Origin: Verrucomicrobiales bacterium
GTDB lineage: Bacteria > Verrucomicrobiota > Verrucomicrobiia > Verrucomicrobiales > DEV007
Direction: 5' to 3'
Assembly: GCA_029213025.1 (NCBI GenBank)
Contig: JARGOZ010000014.1
Coordinates: forward strand, 1-64,000
Length of the DNA: 64,000 nucleotides
The position numbers and the translations under genes were made by a program. A model generated the notes under the pieces. That model was not told where the DNA came from. It was given only the letters and a program-made list of their open reading frames with translations, and did not search any database. Shown here piece by piece: positions 14,704 to 52,595 of the stretch; positions within the stretch are counted from its first letter, which is position 1, and each line of letters starts with the position of its first letter.

Positions 14704-14706
14704 TAA

Positions 14707-14879: not shown

Positions 14880-14995
14880 TAACCGCGCTTTGACTCCGCT
14901 ATCCGGATCTTCTAACCATTCAAGCCCCTTCTCAAACAGGTATTGACGATAGTCGGCTCTCGCCTTGCGCCAGGCCGGGAGTTTGGTTTACTTTC

Positions 14996-15973
14996 TCAAG
15001 CGCCATGTTTTTCCAACCAATTGGAAAGATCATCCAGCGAAGTGAACGCAAGGGCAGCGTCGAAAAGTCTTTCGAGTTGATCCCCGGCGAGAGCGGAAAC
15101 CCTCTTTTGCTGCGATTCCGATAATTCGCCACATGACTTCTGCAAAAGGCGAAGCACCATTTCAGCCTTGCCTTCCTCCTTCCCTTCTTCTTTAGCAAAT
15201 CTTTCCCACGATGTTATGTATTCTGTCATTTCTGGAAACCTTTCGGACTTGATGGCTTTCAACTCCTCACGGAGTCGCCTTTCCAAATCTTCGCTCAGAT
15301 GCATCATCCAGTCAAGGTAGCGCAATATCTCAAGCACTTCGTCGCGCTCGTATTTGTGCTCGTACAACATGCGGATAAGTTGCTTCTTCGCTTCGTATCG
15401 CGCTTCGGCATCGGACGAAGTCCTGAGGGCTTCGATCTGGGCACGGGCAACCATCACGGGGAGAGTGAAATCATCAACCCAGGTCGTTTTCAGGTTTTCA
15501 GAGATCTTACAGGTCGGAAATTTTGCGTTCAAAGAGTATTCGTCCAACTCGAAGTGATAAGTCAGCTGTTCCCACTTGCGGGCAAGATCGGTTCGGATCA
15601 CCAGAGAAACCACGTCGTATTCCGGAAACTGCCACTGCAAACCGCAGTTCAAAAGGTAGAGGCGCTTGCCGAGATCAGATGAATAGTTGGTCTGAACTTC
15701 AAAATGCAGCAGCACGATCTGTTGTTCTCCCGTTAGCAAGGTGACCTGAACGATTACATCGACAAATTTGTTGCGCCGCTTCGCTGTTCCCAGAAATTGA
15801 CTGACTTCTGTGGGGTCAAACACCGGTTCGGTATTCCAATCGACGTTTCCGGCCATCCCCGCGAAGTAAACATTCAAAAACGCACGGAAATGATTCACAA
15901 TAAAAGCTTTCCAGGGCTCATCATAATTGCTGTCGTGAGAAGTTGATGGCTCGCTTTTCTTTCTTTTCGGCAT
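14996..15973 (-). CDS. Rpn-family nuclease with DUF4351-like C-terminus
   Basis: The 325-residue product belongs to the broad Rpn/'transposase-like' PD-(D/E)XK group. The core shows FVDVIVQVTLLTGEQQIVLL (Asp) followed by HFEVQT (Glu-x-Gln), then KRLYLLNCGL. The C-terminus (EEGKEEGKAEMVLRLLQKSC, LSESQQKRVSALAGDQLERL) resembles DUF4351. It is a different subfamily from the Rpn gene at 6896-7858. Together the two stand at the outer edges of the island. The function, DNA cleavage linked to recombination, is inferred from family knowledge. Confidence 0.75.
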   Translation of the reverse strand: MPKRKKSEPSTSHDSNYDEPWKAFIVNHFRAFLNVYFAGMAGNVDWNTEPVFDPTEVSQFLGTAKRRNKFVDVIVQVTLLTGEQQIVLLHFEVQTNYSSDLGKRLYLLNCGLQWQFPEYDVVSLVIRTDLARKWEQLTYHFELDEYSLNAKFPTCKISENLKTTWVDDFTLPVMVARAQIEALRTSSDAEARYEAKKQLIRMLYEHKYERDEVLEILRYLDWMMHLSEDLERRLREELKAIKSERFPEMTEYITSWERFAKEEGKEEGKAEMVLRLLQKSCGELSESQQKRVSALAGDQLERLFDAALAFTSLDDLSNWLEKHGA

Positions 15974-31939: not shown

Positions 31940-31983
31940 ATGAAATGGGAGGAAGTAATATGAAAAGGGAGGAAGTGAAATGA
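31940..31983 (+). promoter_or_regulatory. tandemly duplicated ribosome binding site with two mini-ORFs
   Basis: Two 20-bp units (TGAAATGGGAGGAAGTAATA and TGAAAAGGGAGGAAGTGAAA, three mismatches) lie end to end before the DUF6941-like gene. Each carries GGGAGGAAGT. They create two 7-codon frames (MKWEEVI and MKREEVK), each ending in a TGA that overlaps the next ATG. This would couple translation into the gene. Confidence 0.6.
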
Positions 31984-32375
31984 CAGCGGAAATATTTAGC
32001 TTTTGTGAGTTCGCGAGTCAGAGGGGCGGATCCCTTTCGATTCAGGGTGCTTTTGATAGACTTGATCCGGAGGCTGTGCCGGTTTTTTACACGGCATTGC
32101 GGATTCGACTGCCGGCACAACGCCCGCTGGCAGACATGCAGATGGTTACTATAGATCCGAATGGTAATCTGGTGTGTCCACCAGTTGCGTTGAAAGTCAC
32201 GGGACCTGTCACCAATTTTGTGATTAAAAACCGGAATGTGAAGATGAAACTACCGGGCGTCTATCACACGGTATTGAGGGATGAAGGCAAAATGATCGCT
32301 TCAATCCCACTGTTTGTGGGTAACACAGCTTCTTTGCCTAAGAGAAATGTAAGTGCCTCGAGTTGCTTAAACTAA
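31980..32375 (+). CDS. DUF6941-like protein, copy 1
   Basis: The 131-residue product begins MTAEIFSFCEFASQRGGSLS and continues IQGAFDRL. It then has ALRIRLPAQRPL, TIDPNGNLVCPPVALKV, NFVIKNRNVKMKLPGVYHTV and ends with IASIPLFVG, a predicted beta-sandwich matching DUF6941. A paralogue with the same landmarks lies at 52176-52595. The pair brackets the LEPR-type locus. The function of the family is unknown. It has no signal peptide, so it probably acts in the cytoplasm. It is strongly translated in prospect, given the duplicated Shine-Dalgarno. Confidence 0.75.
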   Translation: MTAEIFSFCEFASQRGGSLSIQGAFDRLDPEAVPVFYTALRIRLPAQRPLADMQMVTIDPNGNLVCPPVALKVTGPVTNFVIKNRNVKMKLPGVYHTVLRDEGKMIASIPLFVGNTASLPKRNVSASSCLN

Positions 32376-32406
32376 TAGATAAAAGAAAAACTAAACTCTT
32401 TCACCT

Positions 32407-32793
32407 ATGAAAAAGCTCCATCATTCTGTATTTGTTGCCGAATCACCGAAAAGTAGAATTCTCTATTCGGACTCACCACTTCCTGCAGCAGAGCAATTTC
32501 CCCCTGACCTCACTCCCGCCGCCGCCAGTGAATACTCGATGGCGACGGATGAAAGTACGGTCGGGGACGAAGCACGAAAAACGGGCGAAGTGGAAAAGCA
32601 AACGCCGGTTATTTTGACGAGTAATAAGAATCTCTCTTCTTCTGAGATTGCCAGGCTTACCCGCTTGGCTGAGAAATGGAAAACTCCCACCGCATTCCCG
32701 GTAACGGGCGCGACACCATCGACCGGCGTGATTAACGGTTTTGTGGAAGTCGCCAATGAGTTCCTGTACTCCGGATCGACGTTTGATCGGTAA
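32407..32793 (+). CDS. small LEPR-XLL-type protein
   Basis: The 128-residue product opens KKLHHSVFVAESPKSRILYS, then DSPLPAAEQ. The SPKSRILYS segment lines up with the LEPR-XLL signature (usually LEPRILLSA; ALEARILYSAAP in the giant protein here). The middle has NLSSSEIARLTRLAEKW, resembling NLSTDEIAELTGNV in the protein at 35659, so the two small proteins share two blocks. It ends EFLYSGSTFDR. LEPR-XLL is an N-terminal motif of large exported PVC proteins. Having it on a 128-residue protein is unusual. The function is unknown. Confidence 0.6.
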   Translation: MKKLHHSVFVAESPKSRILYSDSPLPAAEQFPPDLTPAAASEYSMATDESTVGDEARKTGEVEKQTPVILTSNKNLSSSEIARLTRLAEKWKTPTAFPVTGATPSTGVINGFVEVANEFLYSGSTFDR

Positions 32794-32812
32794 ACTTTCT
32801 CGATTTGAGTTG

Positions 32813-32829
32813 TAACCCGTAGCGGGTTA
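32813..32829. other. short perfect hairpin
   Basis: TAACCCG, loop TAG, CGGGTTA, 20 bp after the small LEPR gene. There is no T-run, so it is a weak terminator or RNA processing site at best. Confidence 0.35.
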
Positions 32830-32914
32830 GCGGTTTGCGTTTGCGCATTCCGGTTTTCGTGTCAGGTTGCCTGATCGCCCGGTTGTGGCGTGTAAGTCTA
32901 ACCCGACTAACACT

Positions 32915-33706
32915 GTGATTGAAAACTCTTTACGTGATGATGATGTTCGCTCGATGATTCGCCTTTTGGGGGACGTTGCCGGAACCGAAAATCAGATCGA
33001 AGCGAAGAGGGCCATGTTGCTCGAAGGCTTGCGTTCGCTTATTGATGCGGACCGCTGGGTCTGGACTTTGATGGGGTATGTCTCGGAAAATACGAAAGTC
33101 CCTCACACTTTGTTTCTTCACGGCGGATTCGCCGAGGGGGAGTTGACGAAATATCTGGAGATCCAGGAGCATAGCGATCTCAAATGGATGACGGAAAAGT
33201 TTTTTACCGAGCTTCAGGAGACTGAAAAAAATGTGACCCGGCTCGGACAGCAACTTGTGACGGAAGAGCAACTTGCCGGGGCTGACATCTATCCTCACCT
33301 GGTTCAGGCGAATCTTGGGCCCATTGCTTTGTTCGGGAGATCAACCCGCAATGGTCAGGTCAGTGTGATCAGTTTTTTTCGGACTGTTGATCGGCCGCTC
33401 TTTTCGAGCCGGGATGCGAGGATCATCCATATCATTTTAAGTGAGGTGCAGTGGATGCACGAAAACAGTTGGCCAAACCATCCGAGGGAGGAAATTTCCA
33501 GGTTGTCGCCGCGTCTGCGGACAGTGCTCTGTCTAATGATTCAGGGTGCTTCGCGAAAAACAATCGCCAGGGAATTAAGTCTCTCGTTACATACGGTTCA
33601 TGGCTACATAAAACATATTTATCAGGCCCTGGGTGTTCATTCGCAATCCGAGTTGATCTGTCGCTTTATTGAAGGGGATGGTGGCGACCGGGTCGTGGCG
33701 CGATGA
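32915..33706 (+). CDS. LuxR-type transcriptional regulator
   Basis: The C-terminal ~60 residues are a LuxR/GerE helix-turn-helix: LSPRLRTVLCLMIQGASRKT followed by IARELSLSLHTVHGYIKHIY and ALGVHSQSELICRF. The ~190-residue N-terminus is a sensor-like region of unknown type, possibly GAF-like, with no receiver or autoinducer-binding landmarks. The start is uncertain: GTG 32915, ATG 32954 or TTG 32867, none with a good ribosome binding site. Its position between a small LEPR gene and two AraC regulators suggests it controls this locus. Confidence 0.75.
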   Translation: MIENSLRDDDVRSMIRLLGDVAGTENQIEAKRAMLLEGLRSLIDADRWVWTLMGYVSENTKVPHTLFLHGGFAEGELTKYLEIQEHSDLKWMTEKFFTELQETEKNVTRLGQQLVTEEQLAGADIYPHLVQANLGPIALFGRSTRNGQVSVISFFRTVDRPLFSSRDARIIHIILSEVQWMHENSWPNHPREEISRLSPRLRTVLCLMIQGASRKTIARELSLSLHTVHGYIKHIYQALGVHSQSELICRFIEGDGGDRVVAR

Positions 33707-33743
33707 AGGCAACCACGTTCGTGGATGGACAGAATTTCAAGTT

Positions 33744-33762
33744 ACCCCCTCATTTGGGGGGT
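33744..33762. other. GC-rich hairpin between regulator genes
   Basis: ACCCCC, loop TCATTTG, GGGGGT, about 40 bp after the LuxR-type gene. No T-run follows. The 203-bp gap holds no gene I can support. Confidence 0.35.
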
Positions 33763-33909
33763 TGAGTTGGCGTTTTATCCAGGTAGCTTACAGCCAATAC
33801 GATATGAGTCTTTTGAAGAACCGCTCTGGAAGCCGCGCAGGTGGCGCATTGGTAAAAATGTTAGTGCGTTTTTCTATGGGCTCTGATCGATATCAACACG
33901 AGTTGCTGA

Positions 33910-34620
33910 ATGATGGTGAAATATAACGATTCTGATACTCCGGGGGTTCTTGTGATCGAAAGGGGCGGGGAAATTTCCAGTCGGTTGGAGGGTTCCTATG
34001 AAGTGTCCTCATCAGGGCCGGACGGGGCGAAAAAAGAGAATCTGAAAAAAATCGATCCGGATGTGGTTCTCATAGAGGTGGAGGAAAGGGAGGATACAGG
34101 GTTTGCAATTTGTCATCAAGTGAAAGCCGGCTGCAGCGATATTCCGGTTATCCTTGTTACCCCGGGACCTTCCGAGTCCCTGCAAATTGAAGGACTCCGG
34201 ATTGGCGCGGACGACGTGATCCACTGTGCGGCGTCTGAAGAGTTGCTGAAGTTGAAAATAGACCGGGTTCTGCTGACGGGAAACCGGAAGGCCAACCATT
34301 CGGAGTTTTTGGAAAAGGTCGATAAATGCATTCTGAAGAATATTTCGGATCCCGGTTTCCATGTTAAGGATCTGGCCGAGTGCCTCAAAATCGACCGCAA
34401 AACTCTTTACCGAAACCTGATGAAGGAGGCGAACATGAACGCGCAATCCTACGTAAAGAAGTTCCGCCTCAACTTTGCTGCGCGACTGATTGAACAGGGA
34501 GAGGATTACACGATTTCTGAAATCTCAGATCTGTGCGGATTCTCCGATGTTAGTTTTTTCTCAAGAAGCTTTACTGATGAATTTGGGGAGCTGCCTTCAA
34601 AAAGTCACCGCGCAAGTTAG
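33910..34620 (+). CDS. AraC-type regulator with degenerate receiver domain, copy 1
   Basis: The 236-residue product has a receiver-like N-terminus (VLVIERGG, PDVVLIEVEERED, IPVILVTPG, GADDVIHCAASEELLKLKI). The phospho-acceptor Asp of a receiver would fall at VVLIE and is Glu here. The C-terminus (about 135-236) is an AraC-type double helix-turn-helix: FHVKDLAECLKIDRKTLYRN, ISEISDLCGFSDVSFFSRSF. The layout resembles the output half of hybrid two-component proteins. Glu can mimic a phosphorylated Asp, so it may be locked active. It is 44% or so similar by eye to the next gene, a tandem paralogue. Confidence 0.8.
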   Translation: MMVKYNDSDTPGVLVIERGGEISSRLEGSYEVSSSGPDGAKKENLKKIDPDVVLIEVEEREDTGFAICHQVKAGCSDIPVILVTPGPSESLQIEGLRIGADDVIHCAASEELLKLKIDRVLLTGNRKANHSEFLEKVDKCILKNISDPGFHVKDLAECLKIDRKTLYRNLMKEANMNAQSYVKKFRLNFAARLIEQGEDYTISEISDLCGFSDVSFFSRSFTDEFGELPSKSHRAS

Positions 34621-34721
34621 AACCGCCATTCTTTTTCAGGGGAGCTGTGCCCCGTATGTACAAATTTACTCCCCATCGTTACTAATGAATTATAGATGGT
34701 TATGTATGTTTTTTGTCGGAC

Positions 34722-35462
34722 ATGATGTATAACGGTCAAAGCAGATTCGATATTCTAAGGAATGAAGAACCGTACCTGTTGGTCTTGGATACCGGTAGGG
34801 AGATGACTGAGAAGATGTCAGCGATGTATCACATAGTCACTACGAATTGTGATAACGTCCTATTGAGCCATTTTAAAGAACCCTACCCATGCGCCGTGTT
34901 AATTTCCGCAGAAATGGATCCGCATTTGGTGCGTCGAGTATCGCGGCAGGTTGCTTCTATTTCTTCGTGTTCACATATTCCTATGATTTATGTGGTAAAT
35001 GAATTGTCCGAACAGGTGGAGATAGATGCTCTTCATTCGGGGTTTCACGAAGTGATTCTACGTTCAGCCAGCGAAGAGCTTTTCACTCTTCGAATCGACT
35101 TGCTGATTAACAGGCTCGGAAAAAGCTATCGGAGACCCCGGTTTTTGGAGAGGGTCGACGAGGTGCTGTTTGAGAATATCGAATATTCCACCTTTCATGT
35201 TGAGGATTTAGCGGCCCGTCTGCATATGGACAGGAAGACGTTGTACACGAGGATTAAAAGAGACTCCGGAATCACCCCTCAGATTTACATCAGAAATATA
35301 CGGATTTGCCGGGCCGCGCATCTTCTTAAAAAAGGAGTTCTTACTGTTTCTGAAGTCGCATTTCAAACCGGGTTCTCGGACGTTAGTTATTTTTCGAGGT
35401 GCTTCAAAGCGTATTTCCGAAAAACTCCCAGCGAATTTCTGGCAAAATACGCTTCGGAATAG
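34722..35462 (+). CDS. AraC-type regulator with degenerate receiver domain, copy 2
   Basis: A paralogue of the previous gene: LLVLDTGREM, CAVLISAEMDPH, IPMIYVVNE, SASEELFTLRIDLL, then FHVEDLAARLHMDRKTLYTR and VSEVAFQTGFSDVSYFSRCF. The phospho-acceptor position is Ser in LISAEM, so no aspartyl phosphate can form there. The start is ATG 34722 or 34725; a TTG at 34713 is also open. Length is about 246 residues. The DNA-binding half is better conserved than the receiver, as expected if signalling inputs diverged. Confidence 0.8.
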   Translation: MMYNGQSRFDILRNEEPYLLVLDTGREMTEKMSAMYHIVTTNCDNVLLSHFKEPYPCAVLISAEMDPHLVRRVSRQVASISSCSHIPMIYVVNELSEQVEIDALHSGFHEVILRSASEELFTLRIDLLINRLGKSYRRPRFLERVDEVLFENIEYSTFHVEDLAARLHMDRKTLYTRIKRDSGITPQIYIRNIRICRAAHLLKKGVLTVSEVAFQTGFSDVSYFSRCFKAYFRKTPSEFLAKYASE

Positions 35463-35658
35463 TCGGGCGTGTACCGCTTCGGTCTTGATACTTCAGCCGT
35501 CTTTTTGTACAGAGGTGCCCCGTGTGTCACAATATTCTCCCCGTGGGTCCATGTTATTTTATTTGACGAAATTCATGCGTTTGGAATCTTGTCAAGTGGC
35601 TGGCTAATTACCTCATGGTAGGCATGGTGCGGATCTAAAATGTAGATCGAAGTGTGAT

Positions 35659-36486
35659 ATGGAAGAATGGAATGCCATATATGAGCGAATCTCAAAGAAC
35701 GCCGATTTCGGTGACAGTTCAGGGCAGTGTGATTACCTGGCAGAAGCTTTGGAATCCCGTGTTCTTTACTCAGGTTCCCCGGTCGATTCGGGTATTCAGG
35801 ATTTCCTCGAACCGGAATGGCTGCTCGATGATGTAGTGACTGACATCGAAATGCCGAAATCATTCGAGTATGAATCGGAAGTTTCTTCCAGCTCGTTTTT
35901 AAAGGAGATCCCGGTCTTTCTTAGTTGCCTGAGTAATTTGTCCACGGATGAAATTGCCGAGCTTACTGGCAATGTCATCAACCGGGGGAAGTCGGCGGAC
36001 CTCGATGACGCCCAGAAGGATGTCATTGACGCCCTCGAAATCTCGATGATCGATGTCCTATCTCTGGTTGAGTCGGGGCCAAATGAAAGTCTTTCTGACT
36101 TTGTATCCATTACCCCCTTGGCAGACAGCAGTACCTTTTCGGGCTCAACACTGGGCGTTCACCCGGAAGCTTCACCGGACCGGATAGGGTTTGATTTGAT
36201 TTGCCATCTGTTACCCGAGTTAAACGGACCGGTTCGTTTAGAAAGTCTTGCCAATCTTCAGATCGCGAAAAGAACCGTCGATGTGGCTCCTGAATCGGAA
36301 ATCACAACGATCAATACTTTGTCGATAAAAGAAGTGAAAAGCCTTACTCCCGTGATGGCGGAAACGCATTCGGTTGTGCAGGTGAATGGAGATTCCCTCG
36401 GTTTTGGATACAAATCCCAATTATTCCTTGATTTGGATGTCGCGAAGCAAATGGGTTGTATCACAGATTCGTCAGGCGTGGAGTAA
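35659..36486 (+). CDS. LEPR-XLL-type protein, medium size
   Basis: The 275-residue product carries CDYLAEALESRVLYSGSPVD near residues 24-43, a clear LEPR-XLL-type block (compare EALEARILYSAAP in the giant protein). NLSTDEIAELTGNVINRGKS near 95-115 resembles the block shared with the 128-residue protein at 32407. The rest is acidic and without known domain, and no membrane anchor is visible. It may be an exported partner of the giant protein, or a truncated derivative of such a protein. The function is unknown. Confidence 0.65.
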   Translation: MEEWNAIYERISKNADFGDSSGQCDYLAEALESRVLYSGSPVDSGIQDFLEPEWLLDDVVTDIEMPKSFEYESEVSSSSFLKEIPVFLSCLSNLSTDEIAELTGNVINRGKSADLDDAQKDVIDALEISMIDVLSLVESGPNESLSDFVSITPLADSSTFSGSTLGVHPEASPDRIGFDLICHLLPELNGPVRLESLANLQIAKRTVDVAPESEITTINTLSIKEVKSLTPVMAETHSVVQVNGDSLGFGYKSQLFLDLDVAKQMGCITDSSGVE

Positions 36487-36862
36487 AAGATCAACAGTCC
36501 TGTTTTCCTGCTCCGGTACCAGTAGATCCATTTGGCTTACAGGCGCTGGAAATCATTGCCTTGTAGTGGCAACAAAAAAATTCTGAGAAGGGTTTACCCG
36601 GGAATTGCTCTCTGAAAATTTCGATCAGTTTCATGTCGCATCTCCGTTTCACTGTAAATCGCTGTTGAGCAGCATCTTGAATTTCGATACCGATAAACCG
36701 GGAGGGCTGTGAGCGTTTTACGAATTAACAGCTGTTTGCGCCTCATGGGTGATAAAATGCGCCCCCTGTCTCCTAACGGTCTGACGAGGAGCTGGTTATT
36801 TTTCGTTTGTGCTGGAATGGGAGTTTTTCAGTCAAACAGGGAAATTGTAAACACAACGCGCA
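36487..36862. other. 376-bp intergenic region before the giant gene
   Basis: No gene-like frame is convincing. It presumably contains the promoter of the giant gene, but no sigma-70 or ECF-type motif stands out, and no strong Shine-Dalgarno precedes ATG 36863. Confidence 0.4.
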
Positions 36863-39800
36863 ATGAAGTTCTGGAGGAGAAAAGGAAATCGGAAGTCAGA
36901 ATCGGAAATCGACCCGGCCGGGAAAAGGGAATTTATTGCGGAGGCTCTTGAGGCGCGGATTCTTTATTCAGCCGCCCCGGCACCGGTAGAAGGGATTGAA
37001 CAAACGGAAGTGGTTCAGGAATCTCCGGAAACCGGGCAGAGTTTTGATTCGATCGATAATTTCGAGATGGATCAGACACGGATATCGATCTCCCCGGTTG
37101 AAAAGAATTCCGCGTCGGAGACTTTGCCGGTAGATGATCTCCAGGTTTACCTGTTAAACCCGGAAGAACTCGATGAACTTATCGTCGAGGCGGCCGGGAC
37201 CGATTGTGGCGATGGCGTTGCGGCAATTACCGGCCTTTCCATTGGTGGCGCGGAGCTCGGCTATTCCCCGGACTCTCAGGTGCTGATTTCCTCCGCCGAG
37301 TGCGGGCTGGCCATGTTGCAGGACAGCATACCGGCGGATGGTGTTAGCTTCTCTGATCAAACCGGACTCGATGAATCGGCACTGGAATCAACAATTTCCG
37401 GAACGGTCGAGATCGAAAACATGCCGTTGACTCTCGACACTCTTGAATGGATGGCTGAGGCGGCGGAACAGCACTGGAGCGAGGCCGGTCTGACCGGGGA
37501 ACAGATACAGGCTCTGGACAGTGTGGAATATCACATCGCCGATCTGGAAGGTTCCGTTTTGGGATATGCAGATGGCTCCCATATCTATATAGATGACGAT
37601 GCCGCCCAGCTGGGTTGGTTCATTGATGAAACGCCTCTCGATTTAAGTGAAACCGGTTTTTCCGGTGTCGATCTGGTTAGTGTACTGGTGCACGAGCAGG
37701 GGCATGTTCTCGGTCTGGAGGATCAGTATCTGGAGGCTTCAGCGGACGTCATGAATGGCATCTTTGCAGAAGGAGAGCGCAGGGATATTGCTGAGGGGAG
37801 AGCTGATGGCGCAGATCCGCTAAGTTTGGCAGGTCCGCATTTCGCAACCACCGAAATCGCCGGTGCGGGTCAACCGTTGGACACTCGCCAGCCATACGCT
37901 ACCACCAACTACGCCATCGCTCTGCAGGGAACTTTTCCGTCACCACAAAACCTGTCCGGGGGTGGCGATCCGGTTCTTGGTTCGATTATGCAATTCGCCG
38001 GAAATTTCGCCCCCCGCGGCTGGGCTCTCGCCGAAGGGCAGATCCTTCAGATTTCGCAACACTATGCACTGTTTTCTATTCTCGGAACCACTTACGGTGG
38101 AGATGGCGAAACCACCTTTGCGCTGCCCGATTTGCGAGGTCGTGTCCCGGTCGGGATCGGAACCGGTCCGGATCTGTCCAGTGTAGCACTCGGGCAAACC
38201 ATCGGCAGCGAGCAAATCAGTCTTTCGACCAGCGAGCTTCCCGGACACGATCACGATCTGGGAAGCGGTTCCACAGACGATACCGGGCTAGGGCAAAGCT
38301 TCGATAACCGGATGCCTGGACTTGGACTAAGACCGCTGATTGCCGTAAGTGGCACTTATCCTTCCAGAAACGCCGAAGCCGGCCTCGGCTCAGTATACTG
38401 GTTTGCCGGCAATTTTGATCCCGCAGGATATCACATCGCCGACGGTTCTCTACTGTCTATGTCTCAAAACCCGGCGTTGTTTTCTCTGCTTGGGACGACT
38501 TACGGAGGTGATGGCCAGACCACTTTCAGGCTGCCTGATTTGCAAGGTCGCACGCCGATCCACAGTGGCTCAGGACCTGGGTTGTCCGATGTCACGTGGG
38601 GAGAGCAGGGCGGAAGCGAAACGGTGACTCTTGAGGAAGTAAATCTGCCGCCGCACTCGCATACCATAGATGACGGCGATCAAAACACGGTCGATTTGCC
38701 AACCGAAGATACAGGTAGTGGGCACCCAATCGACTTGCGCAGTCCTTACCTCGCTTTGACTTATGAAATTGCTCTATCAGGCCTTTACCCCTCCAGCAGT
38801 ATCGATGCGGATGAAACTCCGGTCGAAACGGAAGATACCGGTTTCCGATCCGGAAAAGATTTCATTGATATCGATACCGCCGGTCAGTTGATCCAGAGTC
38901 TCGCCGAAGAAGGTATCCAGCGTTGGGCCGAAGCCGGAATCGACGCCGGCCAAATCAGCCAACTGCAATCGATCAACTTCACAATCGAAGATCTCGATCG
39001 AGGCGTTCTCGCATCAGTCACCGGGCCCGACTCGGTGACGATAGATATAAACGCCGCAGGGCGGGGGTGGTTCGTCGATCTATCCGGCACCGACGATGCC
39101 TTTGATTTGACCGATCCACTAACCGGCGAACTCTACACCAATGATGGAGAAGCCGCCCGCTACTATGATTTGCTGACCACAATCATGCATGAACAGGGGC
39201 ACATCCTCGGCCTGTCCCATCCCGGCCAGAGGGGTAGTGTAATGAGCGGAGTGCTTTCGATCGGCGGACGGTTCAACCCTGAGGCAACGGATCTGTCTTT
39301 TACAGAACATGAAGAAGAGACCGATTCGCCGGACCTGATCGGGGGCGAGCCATTCATAGCGCAGATCGGGATGTTTGCCGGAAACTTCGCCTCCCGGGGG
39401 TTCGCCGAAACCAGCGGCCAACTCCTACCCATTTCAAGCAACGTTGCGTTGTTTTCCCTGTTAGGCACAATGTACGGAGGTGACGGTCTATCGACTTTCG
39501 GGCTGCCGGATTTCCGCGGCCGGGCCGTGGTGGGTGCCGGTACCGGACCTGAGCTGAGCCCCTATTCCCTCGGTCAAATTGGTGGTAGGGAGTCAGCACA
39601 ACTATCCGTGGCGCAAATGCCGGCGCACAGTCATGAATTGTCGTCGGGTACCGGACTCACGATCGACGGCGAAGGCAACCTCGTAATCACCGATAATGAC
39701 GGCACCGCTGACAATCTCACTCTCTCTTCTGATGGAGCGTTTCTCACGATAAAGGATAATCAGGGGGGCACGATTGATATCGGCGACCTGGAAGGCTCGG

Positions 39801-42800
39801 GTAATGGAACCGCTCAGGTTGAAATTGCTCTATCGAAGTTTTCAGGCGGAATCATCTTTAACGGAGCAGGGGGAGATGACACCTTTGAAATCGATTTCAC
39901 CAATGGCTCTGATTTCGGAAACCGGGCGATTACGATCAACGGCGAGGGGCAGAACAGTTCCAACCCCGGCGATCAGTTGGTTCTCACCGGCGGTACCTTC
40001 ACCGATGCGACATTCAATTTCGACAACGCCAACGATGGTAACATAAACCTCGACGGTCTGCTGGTAAACTACACCGGTCTGGAACCGATCACTTCCACGA
40101 GCGCGGCTGAAAACGTGACTCTGACTTTTAACGGCGGAGACGAGACGATCGATGTCACTGACAACGGAGCAACCATCACGGTCGATTCAACCGCTGGCGA
40201 AAGCCTGACCTTTGCCGAACCCGCCGGCTCGCTGACTATCGACGCCGGAACAGGAACCGATGTGATCAATTTCCCCAATGCATTTTCCATGGCTGCCGAT
40301 CTTATCGTCACCGGGGAAACCATCAATCTCGATGGCGGTTCGGTTTCGACCACGGAATCCGATCAGGAGTATAACGGTGCTGTAGTTCTGAGCGCGGATA
40401 CCACTATCACCGGGAATGATGTAATTTTTAACGGGGCTGTGGATTCGGATTCTTCTGTTGATGCTTCAATACCAATTGGATCAGCATTAAACAATCTGGA
40501 AATTAACCACTCCCTGATCAATTCGTTGATCCCTTCACGCTATGATTTTTCCGATGGATTCATTGGCACTACCATAAATGACGGTGGAAGCGACATGTAC
40601 GATGGCGGCAATCGCCTGAACACAAATCTCGCCACGGACATTTCCTACACGAATAATATCACAACCGCTGGAGCTTCCGCTTCCGCTTTCGGTGCCGGGA
40701 GTGAATATTTTACTGCAAAATATGACGGGATTTTCACCATGGTAGCCAAAGATATTTCAATTGATTATTTCGAGATTACCGGCAACAACGGGGCTGATGG
40801 CGGCGGCGCAGTAAACGGTGCCGTTTTGGCGACTAGTGTGGGAGCGCAGCGCTATACAATATTCCTGAAGCGCGTTTACGATGCGGGTGATCCTTCCATT
40901 AATCACATCATAGTTGTTCCAGGAGACGGTTCGGGCCAGAGCCATAATTTCGCAACGAGCACTGATAACGATCAACACCGGGTAATCGGACTCGCAGAGG
41001 TTGACGAAATTTACTATGCGCTGGTGGCGCGCTCCGGTGGCCAGTTTCTGGCAGACGGAGACGTAATTGACATCGCGAACGCTTTGATCGAAGAAGTCAC
41101 ACCCGAATCGGTGCCATGGTCTCTGACAGTGAATACGACAGACGGAGGCGTCACCGCTTTCAATGGTGTGGTAGGTGGAAACTCCTTCTTGTCGGTCTCC
41201 ACTAACAATGATGGACGGACGGAGATTGCCAGCGACCTGGAACTGAAAGGAAATAACTCGTCTTTTGGTGACAGCGTTTTGGTAAAGGGAGATGTTACCA
41301 TAAGGAGCTATTCCGACCTGAGTTTCGAATCAACCGTGGATTCAGCTTCCGGAAACAGTTTTGATCTTAGTGTTCTCGCCGGAAGTCGCAATGTTGAATT
41401 TCTCGGGGATGTTGGAACCGGCAATCTCGGGACGCTATCCGAAGGCGCCGGTCTGGGTGGTCTTTCCCTGAAGGGATCAATTTCGACGAATTCAAATACA
41501 CTGGCAATCAAGGCATCAGATTTTCAGCTTTCAGGCACCTTCGATGCGGGTGCGGGAACATTACACATCATACCCCATGATGGTGATATAGTGAAGCTGG
41601 GATTGGAAACGGAAATACTGGAACTACCCGGTGGCTTGGAAATATCCCGTCAGGAAGGAGAGCGGATAACTGCTTCAACCTTGAAAATAGGCAATGAATC
41701 CTCGGGAACAATATGGGTTGATCATTTCGAACTTCCAAATGTCACAACACTACAGTTACAAACGGCTGGAGCTGTTTTGGAGTATGATCCTGATTCGGGA
41801 AGAGATATTGAAGTTACGAATCTTGCCATTAATGCGGCGATGGGAATCGGCGACTCCGCAGCCAGCTTCGATTTGGATGCGTACTTGCAATCAGCCGCAG
41901 TCGCTCCAAATATCTTCACCACTCTTGTAAGCTCTGCGACCACTCAACCGGTCGTCAATATTGGCTCCATCCCGGGCGAGGTCGGCAAATCCATTCTGGT
42001 GACGGCTGTGGGTATCGGTGGCGATTCCACGTCAGGTTCCGGAGATAACAGGTTTGTCCTTTCTGGTGGAGGGCTGGATTTTTCATGGGTAGCGGGACAG
42101 CAATCTACTCCGGCGGATCTACGCATTCCGGGAACTCCAATAGTATCGAACGGGCCGGATAGCTCAGCGCGCGGGTTTAGCGTCGGGTCACCATTCCTGG
42201 TTGCGGAACAGGGGGCAGCTCTTGAACTGAGCTGGGATTATCATTCCGACTACGACGGTCTCTATACCTACGGAACCGATCCACTCGGGAACTTTTATGA
42301 TGACAGCGGGACGTCATCTTCGATTCGACCAATCGTTCAATATGCGTATGTAACAGATTCGGAAATCGAGCAGATTCGGGCTGGAGTCTCCTCCACGGCA
42401 CTTGAACTTCATGTTTCCAATCTGGAAGCCGATGGAGGTTCAGGTGGAGTTTATGTCGAAAACTATGGCGCGTTGACTCTCGGTGGAGTCAGTTCCTCCA
42501 ATGGAGTATCGGCTTCCGGTGGGAATATAGAGGTCACAGCGACAACGCTTTATGTGAACGAAGACGTATTGTTGACCGGTGGCGGTGAAGTCTTTCTTGA
42601 AGCAGCAGGCTCATTGGGCTCGATCGTAAACAACGATACCGATTTACTTGACGCAGCGAATCTTGCCGAATTGGAAGGCTGGCTGGGAGAACCTTTTACT
42701 CTCGAAAACATTTTTGAGCGTAACTCCGGAGATGCCGCGACGGCGACTGATTTTCACAGTAAGGCCGATGGTCAGGGCCCCACCATTTCTGTATTTGAGG

Positions 42801-45800
42801 TGGTTGGCCCGAACGGGACGGAACTGATCGGTGGCTACAATCCACAAAGTTGGGATTCGTTTTCGGGCTACAACGCTGACAATACAAATGATGCGTTCAT
42901 TTTCAATCTGACTACTGGTTTGAAACTCGATAATACTGATTCAAGGTATCATACTTTCAATTCTATCAACTACGGTCCCACGTTTGGTGGCGGGCATGAC
43001 CTGTATTCGAATAGCGCGCTGACGTCAGGGTATGCGAGCCCTCATTCCTATAATCCGTCGGGAGTGAATATCTTTGGGGTCAGTGTCCGTTCAAATTTCA
43101 CAATCAATGCGGTCGAAGTATTCACTATTAACGAAGGCAGTCCGCCATCACCAGCGACTTTGACGGTAGACGCCGGAATCTCGGCCGAGGAGGGTACGGT
43201 CAATCTCACAGCTACTGACATTGAATTTGAAGACGGCGGTGCGTTTTCTCCCGGATTGCGAACGCCTACTGACTTCGACCAATTTATTATCAATGGGGAG
43301 CTTACGATCAAATCCGGGGCGGAACTTAACCCTGCCATCGATCCCGGGATTATGGGTGGCAACTTTGAAATCGTTCTTTTCGCGAATGACGAGGAGGAGG
43401 AAATTGGTGGTTTTCTGACTCAGGGCGGTGTTACCCTGAATGAGGGAGATCTTGTCACGGTGGGATCCGAGACATTTTCGATTAGTTATGTGGGCGGCGA
43501 CGGGAACGATATCGTGCTGACGCCGGGCACAACTACGACAGTGACAATCAATACCGATGGCGACCTCGTAATTACCGACTCGGACGGTGAAGACACTGCA
43601 GACGATCTCACCATCTCAGCGTATGGAGAGAATCTCTACATCAGCGATTCGAACCCTGATAATAAAATCGACCTTGGCGATATCACGGGAACCGGTGACG
43701 GAACCAACTCTGTATCCATAGCTCTCGACCACGATGGTTGGAACGGCAACATCATCATCAATACTCTCGGCAGTGACGATAAGGTGAATCTGGGCGCTGC
43801 TACAGGATTGAATGGATCGGTAACGATCAACACGGGAAGTGGCACCGATGAAGTCAATGTGATTGGCGATTTTGATGCCGGTGCCGGGAATATTCTGATT
43901 GGTTCAGAAAGCGACAATGTGGAATCGATCAACTTTGCGGGTGGAAAACTTATCAGCACCGGCGATATCACCATTTACGGCGATGTGACGCTGAAAGCTG
44001 ATGCAAGAGTTGAAGGTAACAACATCACCTTTGGTGGAAATATTGATCTGGGAGGATTTGATCTTACAATTGTTGTTGGTGGTGATGCCACGATCGCAGG
44101 ATCGATCCGCGGTTCTGATGATGATCGTTTACTTAAAGAGGGCTCAGGCACTTTAACTCTGACTCAGGAAAGTGCCTCCTATTCAGGCACCACAGTGTTA
44201 AACAGCGGTAAACTTTCTATACAAACCGCTGAAGTAGACGGTGTTAGTCAAGTATTGGGAACCGGGAACTTGATCTTAAATGGCGGTATTCTGGATTTGC
44301 ACGCGGATGTGTCCACCGATTTTGGCGTCGCTGTTGCGGTGACGGACGATACCACGGTCATTGGGGGAGCACTCCCGGAAACCATTGACGCGGCGGCGAT
44401 TACCTTTGATTTTGCAAGTCTTAGCATCGATGCCCACCAATTGACGATCCAGCGGGGGGAAGGGTTTAGTGACAATGCCTCCTATGCCTCATTCGATTTT
44501 AATCAGGTGACTCTGACAGGTAACGCCACATTTCATGTCGTGGATACCACTTCCGGGCGAAACAACCGGGCGCAGCTCTTTGTCCGGGGTATGGACGACG
44601 GCAGTGGCGACAGCTTCGGTTTTTCGAAAACGGGCCGGGGATTTATGATCATGGGCAACGGAATGTATAGATACAAATCGGCCAGTCTCAGTAAAGGGGA
44701 GCTTAGAGTTGTCTCCAACGACGGTTTGCAAGGGGTCACCAATGTATCCGGTGGCACGTTGAATCTACGAACCCGTCCTGATGCGGCCCGCCAGAGCGAC
44801 TTGGTATTTTCGGACGATTCAAACCTCACCTTATCAAGGAACGCTGAAGCAACTACCTTTACAGCAAAATCAATAGAGATTGAAAGCGGGGTTGTTTTGA
44901 AAATTACCTCCTCCAGACAGAACAGCACTTTCACGGTAGAGGGTGTGAATACGCTCGTCACGACCGGTGCCTTTATAACAGGGGCGGGAGCAACGATTCA
45001 ATCCAATCAGGCAAGCACGGTCCCTTTTGATACTGTCATCAGCTCGGATATCACAATGGAGGGAGATCTGATTTTTGACACTCTCACTCAAGGCACCAGC
45101 GGCCCCACCGAATTGACAGTTACCGGCAAAATTGACGATGGTGACGGGACATTTTCAATTACTAAGACCGGCACAGGATTTTTGACCCTGTCGGGTGCCA
45201 ACACTTTTGGCGGTGACACGTCTATCGATGAGGGAACTATGATCCTCGGTGGAGGAGGCGCTCTGGGGGCCACGAGTGCTGTGTCGGTTGCCAATGGAGC
45301 GACTCTCGAAATACACGATGTTTCTTCGAGCACAATCAATGACGCAGCTACTTTGGAGGTTCTCGGCACCGGTTTGGTGCGACTTGATCAGGATGAAGAG
45401 GTTGGTGGTTTGAAGGGAGACGGAACGGTTCGTGCGCAGGATCTGGATTCCAGCGGTGCTGCTACAGTTACTTTGACAGTGGGTTCGGGGGATGCGACCG
45501 CTTCGTTCAGCGGGCTGCTTACGGACGGGGATCAAACGCTTGCATTCGCAAAAGCAGGAACCGGCGTTCAAACATTGGCTGGCAACAACACCTATTCCGG
45601 AACGACTTTAGTTTCAGAAGGAACTCTCGCTGTCGGGATCGACGATGCACTTCCCGTGACAACGGATCTAACAGTAGGCGAAGACTCCGATACCACGACT
45701 GCTCACCTCGATTTGAACGGTTTCAGCCAAACGGTTGGCAGTCTCTCAGTTTATGGTAACAATGCGACACCAAACACAATCACGGTTGATACCGGGGATG

Positions 45801-48800
45801 CCCTGACTGTCAGCGGGGACTTTGTTGTTGGTCTGCCTGCTTCGGCTGGTGCGACCACTAATTTGACCGGCCTCGGAGGAGGATCTCTGATAGTAAACGG
45901 GGATTTGGTTGAAATAGGTATAGCATCAACCGATACCGGTATAATCAACACCACTGCAGTTGATTTGACCGCTCTTGGTACTTTCACCGCAGACGTTACA
46001 GACTTCAGGGTTGCCAATGCCCAGAGAAATGCAGCGACTCTCCTGCTTTCGGATGTCGCTAATGCAATTACGACCGGCGTTCTGTCTGTGAGTGATTCGG
46101 TTGGCAATAATTCAGCCGCAGGTGTGATGGTATTAGGCGCGGGCACGAATGTGATCAACGCGGATTCAATTGACATAGGGCTCGGAAAGGGTAACGGCAC
46201 AATCAAATTTGCTTCTCAGATGTCGGTTACCCCGAATGCACTGATCATTCGGGATCAGCTGGGGACAGGAGCAGCGAATCTTACCGTTGGAGAAAATACT
46301 TCAGCCGGCACCAGCGCCACCACCACAGGCATTCTTGATCTGAGGGGGCATGACGTTGACGTTGAAGTGGCGTCGATGACGATCGCTCACCGCGATAAGT
46401 CCGGGACCAGCGAAACGAATGGAGGAGTCGCCGGGACGGTTTCGTTTGATACCGGAACGTTCACGGTTGATTCAATCGATATGGCGATCCGCTCAGGCAA
46501 CTTTGGCAACCCGGCCACGGCAACACTTAATATCGGCGGCGGAACCTTTACGGTGAACGATTCGTTTTCCATGGCCAACAAGACGGACGACAATACGGCG
46601 GATGCCGTGGCAAGGGTCAACCTGACGGGTGGTGTATTGGTGACCAACGCAGATATCACTCAAAGTGGTCCGGAAGCGGACATAAACACCCTGATCTATA
46701 TTCCGGGCAATACCGCAGACGGTCGTCTTGAATTACAGAATGACGTTGACGTGCAAGTTCCCATTCAGATTGGTGGCCGTCAGGGGGCTACTTTCGCTGC
46801 AGACCATATCCGCAACGTCTCCGGTAATAATACCATCTCCGGAGATATTAACGGCATCATGGGTGGAGGTGCCTATAACATCAGTTCCGTTGCAGGAACA
46901 TTAACGATTTCCGGAACCGTTCACAACCCGAATTCCGGAACGCGAGTCCTTCATCTCGGAGGAGTTGGGGACGGCGAAATTAGTGGCGATTTAACCGGTA
47001 GTTGGTTCGTCGAGAAGGAAGACGGTGGAACCTGGGAATTCTCAGGAACCAATACCAACACCGGGACAACAACCGTGGAAGCGGGAACGTTGCTGATAAA
47101 CGGTACTCATATCGGTGGCGGTAGTTACACCGTAGATGCTAACGCAACGCTCGGCGGAACCGGAACGATCACCCTCGCTGATGACGCCAAAACGGTGACC
47201 ATTAACGGCACCCTGGCGACCGGAGATCCGGACACGGCGGATGGGATTGGAGATCTCACTATCAACAACGACGTTATCTTCAACGGCATTTATAATTTCC
47301 AGATCGACGGAAGCACCTCTGACACACTTGTGGTGGGCGACGGTGATACGGACGGAGGCGATGACGAAACCGTTACTCTCGGTGCCGGGTCCACGTTGAC
47401 TGTGACCGACATCAACAATGACGCCACCGACAATTCCACCATTGTCATGATCGACAATGACGGAGCTGATGCCATAATCGGAACCTTTGGAGATGATGGC
47501 AATGTTGCGGGAACCAGTGAACTGACCGAGGGCACTACAGTGGTTGATGACGACGGCGACATATATGTGATCACCTATGCCTATGAAGCGGGAGCTGACG
47601 GCAATGCCAATGATGTCGCTCTGTTCGAAGGCGCGCCGGAAACTCAGGTGGATTTTGATTCAGGAACAGGCGTACTCTCGATCACCGATATCAATAGTGA
47701 TTCAGTGAATGACATCACCGTAACATTTGACGCAACCGGAAACGGAGGAACCGGAACCTACACCATTTCTGAATCGGATGCCGACAACGTTATCGGCACC
47801 AGCGGTGTGACCGTGATTTCCCGGACTGCAACCAGTGTGACCATTGATGCTACGGGTATCAGTTCTATTGTTATTGACACTGATGGAGCAGTTGACGCGG
47901 ATGATACACCGGAAAATAACGACACGGTGAGCTTCGCGGCAGGCGATGCAGTCGTATTGAGCGGCGCGTTGACTGTTATTGCCGACGATATCGTGGTGGA
48001 AGCTGGAGCGAAAATTAACAGCTCAGGTGCGGGTTCAGTGAATTTCAACGCCAATACCCAAATTGATGTTCTGGCGGGTGCAGAAGTCACTTCGGATTCC
48101 GGAGCTATCACCATGAGCGCAAATGCGGCGGGGACCGGCAACGGCAACTTTATCGGCATAGATATCAGCGGTGCCACCGTATCATCCAACTCCGGCCCGA
48201 TTGCTTTGACGGGAACAGGTTCAAACAACGACGGAATTCAAATCGATGACGGAACCGAAATTTCATCGACCAGCGGAACCATTACCCTGACGGGAACCGG
48301 CGGAGCCACCGCCAATGACGAAGGAGTCGTGGTAGCCGGGGCCGGTACCAAAGTGACTTCCGAAACAGGAAATATTACCATTACAGGCACCAATAACGAC
48401 ACCGATGATGGCGTTCAAGTTTCTGGTGGCGCCGAGATTTCTTCGACTGGAACCGATATTTCCACCGCCGCGACGATAACCATCACCGGCACTGGTGGTG
48501 ATGGCGCTGCTGATGGCGAAGGTAGCGGCGATAGAGGCGTGGAAATCGTTGGTGGTGCCACGGTCACCTCTGCGGCAGGCGGGATTTCTATCACAGGCAC
48601 CGGTGCTGGTGATGACGGTGTCTATATTGCCGGAGGGGCAACCGTTTCTTCTACCGGGACGCTCTCCAACGCAGCGACTATCATGATCGATGGGACCGGT
48701 AGTGGTATAGCCAATAGCGAAGGCGTAAATATTACCGGTGCCGGAACCACCGTAACATCAGTGGACGGGGATATCTCGATCAGCGGAGACACCGATTCAG

Positions 48801-51800
48801 TCGCCACTGGACTGGATGGAAATGGCGGTGATGACGATGGGGTGCAAATTTCCGTAGGTGCGCTGATTTCCTCTACCGGAACCGATGTTAGCAACGCAGC
48901 AAAAATCACCATTACCGGCGATGGTGGCGCGATTGGCGGCGATCGCGGAGTGGAGATAAACAGTGCCGGTACCAAAGTCACTTCCCACGCCGGTGCTATT
49001 TTGATCAAAGGAACCAGCGCCGGGGACGGCGGCGTGTTTGTGGGCGGAGGAGCGGAAGTCAGCTCCACTGGTAACGGTGCCAACGCCGCTACAATCACCC
49101 TCGACGGCGAAGGTGGAGCCACCAGTAATGATGAAGGAGTGGAAATCACCGGAGCTGGAACACTGGTGACATCCATCGACGGCAACATCCTTATCGACGG
49201 AGACAGTGGAGGAGCTGATGACGGGGTCGATATCAATTCCGAAGCTGTAGTTTCCTCTACAGGGACAACCACCGATGCTGCGACCATCACAATCATTGGG
49301 GCGGGAGGTAACGGTGAAGCCGACCGCGGCGTGGAGATTGCTGATGACGCACTGGTTACTTCGATAATTGGAACTATCAGCATCACCGGAACCAGTTCCG
49401 GAGACGGTGTGGGGATCGAAGACCGCGGGACGGTTTCCTCAACCGGAATCGGTGTCAATGCGGCTACCATTACAGTCAACGGCACCTCCAGCGGCGGCAA
49501 CGAGGATGACGGCGTGGCGATTGGCGACAGTGATCAGACCACTGCCACCACCGGCGGAACCATTACTTCCGTCGACGGCAATATTATCATTACCGGAACA
49601 AGCAGTGGTGACGATGGGGTTTCCATAGACGACGGAGGTGTGATTTCCTCGACCGGAACCGGTGCCAACGCCGCGAATATATCGATTACTGGAAATGGTG
49701 GTGGCAATTCCGGCCTCGACGACGGAGTCATTATAAAAGGCGCTGACAGCAGTGTTTCGTCCGTGGATGGAGATATCAATATTGAAGGAACCGGGGGCGA
49801 AGACGGTGTTGAAATGGAAGCGGGCGTCACCGCGCCGGTTTCAGCAACCGGAGATGGCAATATCCGGATCTGTGGAACCTCTACCAATCCCGACAACGCC
49901 GGAGGAAATTTTGATGTCCAGATTGACGCGCCTGTTGCGAGTCATACCGGAACTGTCGAAATTTGTTCTATTGGAAGCGGAAGCGTCAGCTTTGGGGCAG
50001 ACGGTGATGTGACCTCAACCAGTGAAAAGATTACCGTTAGAGGCGCTGACCAGGTTATCATGGCAAACGGCTCTCTGATCAACGCCGGAAGCGGTGACAT
50101 AGATGTAGATGCAAATGGTGATATCACAATCGGCGGCCTGAAGACCACCGGAGCAGGGTCTGTGACAGTGGATACCACAAACCCATATCGACATAGTTGC
50201 TGCCAATGCGGGCGACGTGGAACTCAACGCTTCAAATGGAGCTGTCGGAAGCGATGGAACTATAGATAATGCGCTGGAAACTACAGTATCAAATCTCGAC
50301 GGTGCGGCTGAAGGAAAATTCCTGATCGACAATACCGGCAATCTGTCTGTAGGGTCTGATAACATATCGGCGGGAGACGATGTCGGTATCACTACGACCG
50401 GCGACATGACAGTGGGCGCTCAATCCGTCACCTCTGGCAGCGGTGATATCGACCTCGATGCAGGGAACGACTTTACTCTTGCTAACGATGGTATTCTCGA
50501 CGCCGGAGGTCAGATCACTATCGATGTCGATCAAACAGGCACTGTTGATGCGGACGACGGCAGCACGGTAGAACTGCGCGGCACGGTCCGTACCGGAGAC
50601 GAAAAGGAAGTGTTTATCTCCGGAGGCAATGAGGTTGATACGTTCAACATCACACCCAGTGCAAACACAATCATCAATGTGGAAGGCAACGATCCCAATC
50701 CGCATTGCGATGGCGATGAAATCAATCTGCTAAACGCCGGAGCGGACACTCAGTTTGCCGGAACTCAGTTTAATCAGGCGGACCCGCATGTTACAGGTTC
50801 CGGTTTCTATACCTTTACCGGAGCGAAGAATGTGGTTGTGAAAGAGCTTGAAGATGACAATGTCGATCCGCGGATCGTAAACCTGTCTGCAACAAATGTA
50901 GATGAAAACGGAATATCGACACTGAGTGGGCAGGTGATTGATTTGGGAAGCCTGGGGGTTCATGAGTTGAGAATTGACTGGAGAGACGAGTCCGGGGTGG
51001 AAACGGTGAACCTGGGTGCAGTCAGTACCAATGCTACGATTGACGATGCCGGAAATTTCACGGTGACTCATCGATATCTGGACGACAATCCGACTGCAAC
51101 TCCTTCAGATCAATACACCGTCAGTGTGACGGTGGAAGATAACTGCGATGATCGCGAAACTAATCAGGTAACAAATCTAACGGTTTTCAATGTCGCACCG
51201 TCTCTGGTATTTGATGAAATCCCGTTTGTCCAGCGCAACGAGACCACAGTGGTGACCGGCCGGTACACCGACCCTGGTTTGCAGGATACATTTACTCTGG
51301 AGGTAGACTGGGTGACCGGTCCCGGAGCAACATTTGTCATCTCGAAAGTCGGCGAATTGAATGTGGATGATGAAATTGACTCGAACACAGATCGATCCAA
51401 ACTCCGTATCACCAGTGTAGACCCCGGGACCGGTGAAGTCGGTTTTGAAGTAAAGCACATCTACACGGTAGATAGCTGCTACGATATTATCGTAAGGGTG
51501 ACAGACGATGACGGAGGAACGGTGGAAGACACGAAGCAGGCTCTGGTATATTTTCTGAAGCCGGGACCGAATACACTTGGATTTTTCTCTTTTAAAGGCC
51601 CGAATCGTCTTGCCGGTATTGACGGGATTTTTCGCAATCTGGAAACGGAAGGATTTGTCGCCGGTGTTTCAGCTCCGGATTCCGGTTCCGGTGATTCCTC
51701 TGTAGCGATGATGCCTACCTTCAGTGGTGCTGGCCTGCCGATGTCCAATATTTCTGTCACGGTTCGTGATGCTTTCGGACGGAAATTAGCGACACAAACC

Positions 51801-52031
51801 ATTGATGCTGGTGCGTCAGGATCCTGGACTGTTTCGTTCCCGGGAATTGACGCCGCGCGCGGGCCGTTAGTGATCGAGGTGAGTAATCAGTCTTCCGGGA
51901 CGCAGGATCTCTATCGATTTAACCTCGATGAGAATACGGCAGAGAAACTTTTTGAACTTCTCGTCCCGGGGCAGTCGGTTTTTTCCTTCCCGGCTACCTT
52001 TGACGATGCCTTTTTGAAGTGGATTGAATAA
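36863..52031 (+). CDS. giant LEPR-XLL exported mosaic protein, one frameshift near 50185
   Basis: ATG 36863 reads 4,468 codons, and the downstream frame (from 50217) completes the protein after a one-base excess near AACCCAT (50181-50187). Removing one C gives a continuous reading of about 5,055 residues. Order: LEPR-XLL block (29-39); metzincin-like site HEQGHVLGLED (277-287) with VMNG Met-turn; two tail-collar modules (about 372-470, 509-603); second metzincin-like site HEQGHILGLSH (776-786) with VMSG; third collar (831-928). Then come beta-strand repeats with several autotransporter-associated (PATR-type) units such as GTGTLTLTQES and GNNTYSGTT, and about seven 62-73-residue repeats with VSSTGT (nt 48430-49700). 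PKD-like domains and a C-terminal beta domain end it. It is probably a surface-exposed adhesin/protease, with no PEP-CTERM or LPXTG. Confidence 0.75.
48120..49750 (+). repeat. in-frame tandem repeat region of the giant gene
   Basis: A block of the form DDGVxIxxGAxVSSTGTxxxAATITIxGxGG recurs about seven times at intervals of roughly 185-220 bp, alternating with half-units of the form GAGTxVTSxxGxIxIxG. It would fold as a parallel beta-helix. Slippage here could change length. Confidence 0.8.
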
Positions 52032-52175
52032 CGAACTCTTACCACCGGGTAGAGCTTAGATCGTGAAGAATTCAATAAAATGCCCCGTTGATGCAAAAGT
52101 TAACCCCGTGGTTATTAGTGTTTAATGTCTTTTTGAGGTATTAATGTTCGGGTTGAGGAAACCATTATCATAGAG

Positions 52176-52595
52176 ATGGACGAGTTGGCGAAAGAATTGA
52201 AGGTGGAGATATTTACTTTTTGTGATAACGCATCAAAAAAAGGCGGTTCTCTCTCGATTACCGGCACGTTTGAGAATTGGACCGCAAAGGAGTTTCCCGC
52301 CGATTTTCCGGATTTTTGTATCGCAATTCGGATCAGATTGCCTCGCACCCTGCCCGTGGTTTTATGTCAATTGTTGATCCTGAATCCGGATGGAGATTTG
52401 ATGCTGAAACCTTTAGATTTGAAGGTGACTGCGCCGGTGTGGACCGCAGTCGTGACCAATCGAAATGTAAAATTACCGAAAGAGGGCACCTACAGGGCGG
52501 TTCTGTACGCGGACAAGCAGGTTGTGGCGTCTCTGCCCCTCTTTATCAAGTGTGCTCCTGTCCCCGGGGAAGTTCTTGAAGGTCATTTGAACTGA
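52176..52595 (+). CDS. DUF6941-like protein, copy 2
   Basis: A 139-residue paralogue of the protein at 31980: KVEIFTFCDNASKKGGSLSI followed by TGTFENW, AIRIRLPRTLPV, LNPDGDLMLKPLDLKV, VTNRNVKLPKEGTYRAV, VVASLPLFI. It has a slightly longer N-terminus. Sharing the landmarks at both ends of the LEPR locus, 20 kb apart, suggests the family belongs to this locus rather than being there by chance. The function is unknown. Confidence 0.75.
   Translation: MDELAKELKVEIFTFCDNASKKGGSLSITGTFENWTAKEFPADFPDFCIAIRIRLPRTLPVVLCQLLILNPDGDLMLKPLDLKVTAPVWTAVVTNRNVKLPKEGTYRAVLYADKQVVASLPLFIKCAPVPGEVLEGHLN

Follow-up and report, generated by a model that had tools for sequence, protein, structure and literature searches.

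A giant LEPR-type protein with a metzincin-type front module and its neighbouring genes in a Verrucomicrobiales genome

The window, that is, the whole stretch of 64,000 nucleotides analysed here, belongs to a draft genome of 7.88 Mb in 338 contigs. A block of plus-strand genes was located between rnr, which lies upstream on the minus strand, and the rpmI-rplT-pheS-pheT genes, which follow directly. The genes are arranged in the order DUF6941 paralogue a, a 128-aa ORF, a LuxR-type regulator, AraC-type regulators 1 and 2, a 275-aa ORF, a giant ORF, its continuation, and DUF6941 paralogue b (Table 1). All the genes named by a first-pass annotation of this DNA, namely two DUF6941 genes, one LuxR-type and two AraC-type regulators, and two short and one giant LEPR ORF, could be confirmed to exist. 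Elsewhere in the window, the region 6896–15973, in which the GC content falls to 42%, resembles an acquired island and contains a YhgA-like transposase-family gene, a KAP-family NTPase, a Pfam-less 695-aa protein and a DUF4351 protein.

Table 1. Features of the plus-strand block, with window coordinates and the basis of each assignment
Feature	Position	Strand	Basis
DUF6941 paralogue a, 131 aa	31980..32375	+	PF22091 50.6 bits, cut-off 27
Short LEPR-like ORF, 128 aa, SPKSRILYS, no zinc site	32407..32793	+	Alignment to giant fronts; module HMM 26 bits
LuxR-type regulator, 279 aa	32867..33706	+	GerE 48.7 bits
AraC-type regulator 1, degenerate receiver	33910..34620	+	HTH_18 57.7 bits; Response_reg below cut-off
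AraC-type regulator 2, receiver unrecognisable	34713..35462	+	HTH_18 81.9 bits
Short LEPR ORF, 275 aa, LESRVLYS, no zinc site	35659..36486	+	Alignment to C256 giant front
Giant LEPR mosaic ORF, 4468 aa	36863..50269	+	ORF and translation, domain matches
LEPR-type stretch EALEARILYS, giant aa 27-36	36941..36970	+	Genome-wide motif search
Metzincin domain, front module	37439..37900	+	Peptidase_M10 20.5 bits (cut-off 24); module HMM 239.8 bits; PDB profile
Phage-tail collar-type domain 1	37982..38158	+	PF07484; coordinates by inspection
Phage-tail collar-type domain 2	38390..38566	+	PF07484; coordinates by inspection
Second metzincin copy, HEQGHILGLSH	38885..39352	+	Peptidase_M10 27.5 bits, above cut-off
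Phage-tail collar-type domain 3	39362..39538	+	PF07484; coordinates by inspection
TLDc-like domain	42731..43129	+	PF07534; NF038124 158 bits
PATR / autotransporter-type repeat, best of four	45551..45634	+	PF12951, TIGR02601
Giant continuation in other frame, 604 aa, PKD/Ig-like tail (inspection)	50217..52031	+	Repeat style, coding bias
DUF6941 paralogue b, 139 aa	52176..52595	+	PF22091 65.2 bits, cut-off 27

The motif said earlier to be shared by three proteins could be recovered as LEPR-like stretches in all three (LEARILYS in the giant, LESRVLYS in the 275-aa ORF and SPKSRILYS in the 128-aa ORF), but the last copy is degenerate and the NCBIfam scores stay below cut-off. None of the three ORFs reached the curated 17 bits of the LEPR-XLL profile (NF012209, LEPR-8K), which gave 15.8 bits for the 275-aa ORF, 13.1 bits for the giant and no match for the 128-aa ORF, so that the family assignment is drawn from the genome's own LEPR set. 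In the very long window giant, as in the other giants, a LExR.L[YF]S stretch was found close to the N-terminus. This pattern occurs at 11 places in the genome compared to 2 for a reversed control, and the LEPR profile returned 13 sites, the window rows having been part of its training set. Searching 75 family genomes with a profile built from the LEPR N-termini of this genome, and covering the LEPR region only, revealed matches in 27 genomes. A scan of a contig collection with the LEPR profile produced only four loci, all from one Verrucomicrobia MAG (MAG-85).

The feature common to the LEPR proteins exceeds the motif and is a whole front module. This conserved module of ~265 residues opens with the LEPR stretch and closes with a zinc protease of metzincin type, recognised by HExxHxxGxxD and a Met-turn, the zinc site typically lying ~165 residues downstream of the LEPR stretch. 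The genome encodes about nine giants, each with a LEPR-type stretch and a metzincin front; the metzincin site was present in 9/9 of them and in 41 of the 54 readable LEPR loci of other family genomes (16 genomes). Among 13 giants examined (nine own, four from G020 / MAG-85), HExxHxxG was located at most 350 aa from the LEPR stretch in every one, with a spacing of 165–177 aa in 11, whereas the remaining 39,193 aa of these proteins, beyond the first 350 residues, contained it a single time. Because the search profile spanned the LEPR region only, this coupling was not selected for. Beyond the family, one of 11 phylum LEPR loci was readable and had no zinc site there, so the coupling is shown inside the family only. 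The module HMM of 265 positions formed a conserved block without breaks, its consensus being roughly RW..sGLs.eQlaAL..I.Y.i.DLeG..LG.AeG..I.iD.DAAG.gWFvD.TP..DeEF...giDLLsVlmHEqGHvLGL.D.y...vMyG.f.eGeRR.

In the window giant, the module carries HEQGHVLGLED at 37691 and the Met-turn VMNG (zinc site to Met-turn, aa 277–299), and a second zinc site was detected at aa 776. The combination of HExxHxxGxx[HD] with a downstream Met-turn was found in the giant and is absent from the 128- and 275-aa ORFs. Against PF00413 (cut-off 24 bits), the front module of the window scored 20.5, its later copy 27.5 and the giant C186a 31 bits. The module profile matched stromelysin-3, karilysin and snapalysin in the PDB. 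An AlphaFold2 model of the metzincin reached only middling confidence, with a pLDDT of 62, and Foldseek gave no significant matches for it; the VIA-align rows of this same model were nearly all zincins with Z values of 5.6–7.4 (selecase, MMPs, snapalysin and karilysin). The module resembles peptidase family M10 and matrixin-like metzincins in HExxHxxGxx[DH] with its Met-turn, in the Pfam M10 matches and in the zincin-like fold model. As examples of the M10 enzymes, karilysin, stromelysin-3 and snapalysin may be named. The front modules differ in having mostly Asp as the third ligand, as snapalysin does. Moreover, no separate propeptide was seen, and the protease is fused to the LEPR leader and a giant repeat body.

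Behind the front module, the body of the giant contains three collar-type domains, with a second full metzincin set among them, then a TLDc-like domain and PATR repeats, and its PKD/Ig-like tail, recognised by inspection, is encoded in another frame. The giant LEPR mosaic described earlier is present with its domains matched, but it is frame-broken near 50.2 kb. Its sense is lost there, the repeat pattern being abandoned within 50150–50300, and the other-frame continuation at 50217–52031 matches the giant in repeat style and coding bias. Either a fault of the assembly or a genuine lesion may underlie the break. A similar frame change was observed near 19.45 kb of L103 in a giant of the same genome on contig C256, and both breaks would suit a decaying pseudogene at a locus where nothing is active. 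Such decay is unlikely, since the coding bias persists in both parts, the break lies close to the 3' end and an indel error is equally likely in a draft assembly of 338 contigs. The giant is probably an exported mosaic protein, and our verdict is that it represents a known kind of giant, probably adhesive exported protein whose LEPR-metzincin front module is undescribed. When the last 250 aa of the giants were compared by BLAST, no conserved sorting region was found at their C-termini.

The two short LEPR ORFs could be aligned to this module. The 275-aa ORF matched the front of the C256 giant with 27% identity over 263 aa (E 4e-18), and the 128-aa ORF matched the fronts of several LEPR giants (E about 1e-6). 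Two further short LEPR ORFs of the genome, 220 and 225 aa long, align to the module likewise, and the zinc site is absent from all four; beyond the module, no mutual match could be found between their tails. Since they align to the module without the zinc site, truncation is a simpler reading than the small motif-sharing partners proposed before, and the short ORFs are most simply taken as truncated front-module copies on sequence grounds. Tandem LEPR giants were found on C80 and C52 of G027 (four on C80), on C144 and C126 of G020 (three on C144) and on C186 of the genome itself, with a spacing of ~13–30 kb, so the presence of three LEPR starts within 4.5 kb is simply explained by a deletion in an array of this kind, and the short ORFs probably arose in this way. 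Both window ORFs retain in-frame coding bias and may therefore still be made.

It is rather unlikely that the short proteins form a functional class of their own, free of the zinc site, using the same export route and acting as inhibitors or decoys of the giants' proteases. The genome does hold four of them, two outside the window and not adjoining giants, the LEPR motif is well preserved in three of the four, and coding bias is kept in both window ORFs. However, their tails are unlike each other beyond the module, the LE of the motif is gone from the 128-aa ORF, and a short LEPR ORF of a relative (G062) is a visibly frame-broken module.

The two AraC-type proteins are 35% identical and both exceed the HTH_18 cut-off. 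The receiver of AraC 1 scored 25.4 bits against a Response_reg cut-off of 30.2 and that of AraC 2 gave no match, and inspection revealed that the phospho-acceptor Asp is replaced by Glu or Ser; the earlier description as tandem AraC-type regulators with degenerate receivers holds. Besides each other, they had no relative at E <= 1e-22 in the 75 family genomes, while relatives of the window LuxR were present in 11/75, its own genome included. The first-pass annotation had allowed that the arrangement would be chance if DUF6941 and the regulators were rarely near LEPR genes elsewhere. They were indeed rare: when the upstream flanks of LEPR genes in relatives (58 regions, each up to 6 kb) were scanned with our own HMMs, DUF6941 was detected in 0/58, AraC-type genes in two and LuxR-type genes in two or three. 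The figures for rare neighbours are drawn from these HMMs, as the Pfam listing covered 25 of 91 neighbour families.

The genome contains 11 GerE genes in total, two of which lie just upstream of LEPR giants (in the window and, divergent, on C256), compared to a rough chance estimate of ~0.1 cases. In G062, a LuxR gene of the window type is located 3.5 kb from a LEPR giant. The LuxR protein on C256 differs in type from that of the window, the two aligning over ~80 C-terminal residues only. As the types differ and several gene classes were examined, the adjacency is suggestive only; this weak LuxR-LEPR link may be a real regulatory tie. At L103:4543-5592 (contig C256 of genome G000, the genome analysed here), a LuxR-type gene of 349 aa, divergently oriented, and an HTH-like gene of 89 aa adjoin the C256 giant.

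The DUF6941 paralogues at the edges were confirmed, both being above the PF22091 cut-off and 44% identical to each other, and they are the sole two copies in the genome. DUF6941 was detected in 34/75 family genomes and in 168/289 genomes of a phylum sample, mostly in single copy. The window pair consists of divergent duplicates, whereas elsewhere a genome mostly has one member of the family, set among unrelated genes. Outside the window, none of the copies listed in the 75-genome family search shared a contig with a LEPR gene, and the nearest DUF6941-LEPR pair among the matches listed for the 289-genome phylum sample was ~249 kb apart. DUF6941 as a part of a LEPR system was rejected on the family and phylum coordinates and the 0/58 upstream regions. 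No viral relatives were found in IMG/VR, no sequence relative in the PDB and no literature on DUF6941; the AF2 model built from two sequences had a pLDDT of 34.

Around DUF6941 genes of other genomes, recurrent neighbours were observed. In one genus (L050-L052; G007, G011, G013), DUF6941 adjoins a small ~107-aa protein (MK.NL.L.KY.R.KN.RS), a possible pair in that genus, and in several other family genera (L029-L043) it comes after one recurring large gene (PGEGLACHVIGYVGKKA...), which on inspection resembles a penicillin-binding protein. Single-genome neighbourhoods around DUF6941 should be read with caution and not as systems.

Seven relatives (G020, G032, G007, G029, G012, G026 and G003) lack the block next to rpmI-rplT; unrelated genes lie beside rplT in these, including the closest, G020 (L20 88% identity). 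No DUF6941 or AraC neighbours were found at the ten other LEPR sites of the genome. Based on the family, phylum, upstream, synteny and within-genome results, the gene set is particular to this lineage and a DUF6941 linkage is unsupported. The proposal of a regulated surface system bounded by DUF6941 genes is not supported, as no DUF6941-LEPR linkage was found elsewhere among the copies listed, the AraC genes are without close family relatives and the block is missing at rpmI-rplT.

With a rough probability of 0.68, the locus is best explained as one site of a dispersed giant family, in which the short ORFs are truncated fronts, the DUF6941 and AraC pairs are chance neighbours and the LuxR link is possible. 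It is an odd coincidence for chance neighbours that both DUF6941 copies of the genome sit here. This fact, together with all genes lying on one strand within 20.6 kb, the two of only 11 GerE genes just upstream of LEPR giants against ~0.1 expected and the coding bias kept by the short ORFs, speaks for a young lineage-specific functional locus, where the giant would be regulated by LuxR and both AraC proteins, assisted or inhibited by the short LEPR proteins as inactive relatives of the protease, and accompanied by DUF6941 as an accessory. We consider such a locus doubtful, as the set is not conserved in the 75 family genomes and is absent at the site in seven relatives, the window LuxR is of another type than the one on C256, and no such set is present at the ten other LEPR sites.

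As one of the scattered sites of a family of paralogous giant exported proteins, the locus would encode a protein following a common plan: a LEPR-type stretch, a linker, a metzincin domain and then a variable repeat body. The LEPR stretch would most likely mark the giant for export. The body of the window giant (collar, TLDc, PATR and PKD/Ig-like parts) is probably adhesive and would extend outward from the cell surface, and the putative protease would act near the anchor, its target being either its own leader or substrates that the body holds; its role is perhaps leader release or the cutting of surface substrates. The short LEPR ORFs would be shortened fronts that lost the zinc site, probably derived from former neighbouring giants of a tandem array, and the DUF6941 and AraC pairs would be local duplicates found here by chance. 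The fixed placement of a protease ~165 residues after the motif in a Verrucomicrobia family may offer a handle on leader cutting, possibly self-cutting. It is a very unlikely extension of this that LEPR and metzincin form a self-contained export-and-processing cassette with the zinc-site-free short copies as dominant inhibitors under LuxR/AraC control; in such a cassette, the protease would remove its own LEPR leader or trim neighbouring surface giants after export.

A search of the literature revealed LEPR-XLL in two passing uses only, and no description of the export and maturation of these proteins could be found. In a Vibrio protein of ~8000 aa, LEPR-XLL is located at the N-terminus, while RTX and serralysin domains lie at the C-terminus (PMC10868602). 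The window giant resembles LEPR-XLL (NF012209) and this protein in its LEPR-type stretch near the N-terminus, its giant, modular and probably secreted nature and its metzincin-class protease. It differs in the motif, LExR[IV]LYS, which scores below the NCBIfam cut-off, in the metzincin, which lies directly behind the motif and not at the C-terminus, and in having no RTX family match. Stieleria varia, a member of another phylum, was described with 12 giant adhesin-like genes over 15 kb, one annotated as Matrixin, and with adjacent giant locus tags (PMC7717043). According to the sections of that paper available to us, such PVC giants are likewise mosaics with cadherin, pectin-lyase, Ig-type and matrixin parts, several per genome and some apparently adjacent, and those sections do not mention a LEPR-metzincin front module for S. 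varia. Giant LEPR proteins are thus known, whereas the fixed LEPR-metzincin front module across a Verrucomicrobia family and the zinc-site-free short copies, for which no description was found in the literature, appear to be new. LEPR-XLL proteins can rank among the largest bacterial proteins. The LEPR matches in G028:C57, G074:C8 and G092:C1 lie in open frames of ~16,800–19,200 aa, far exceeding the window giant.
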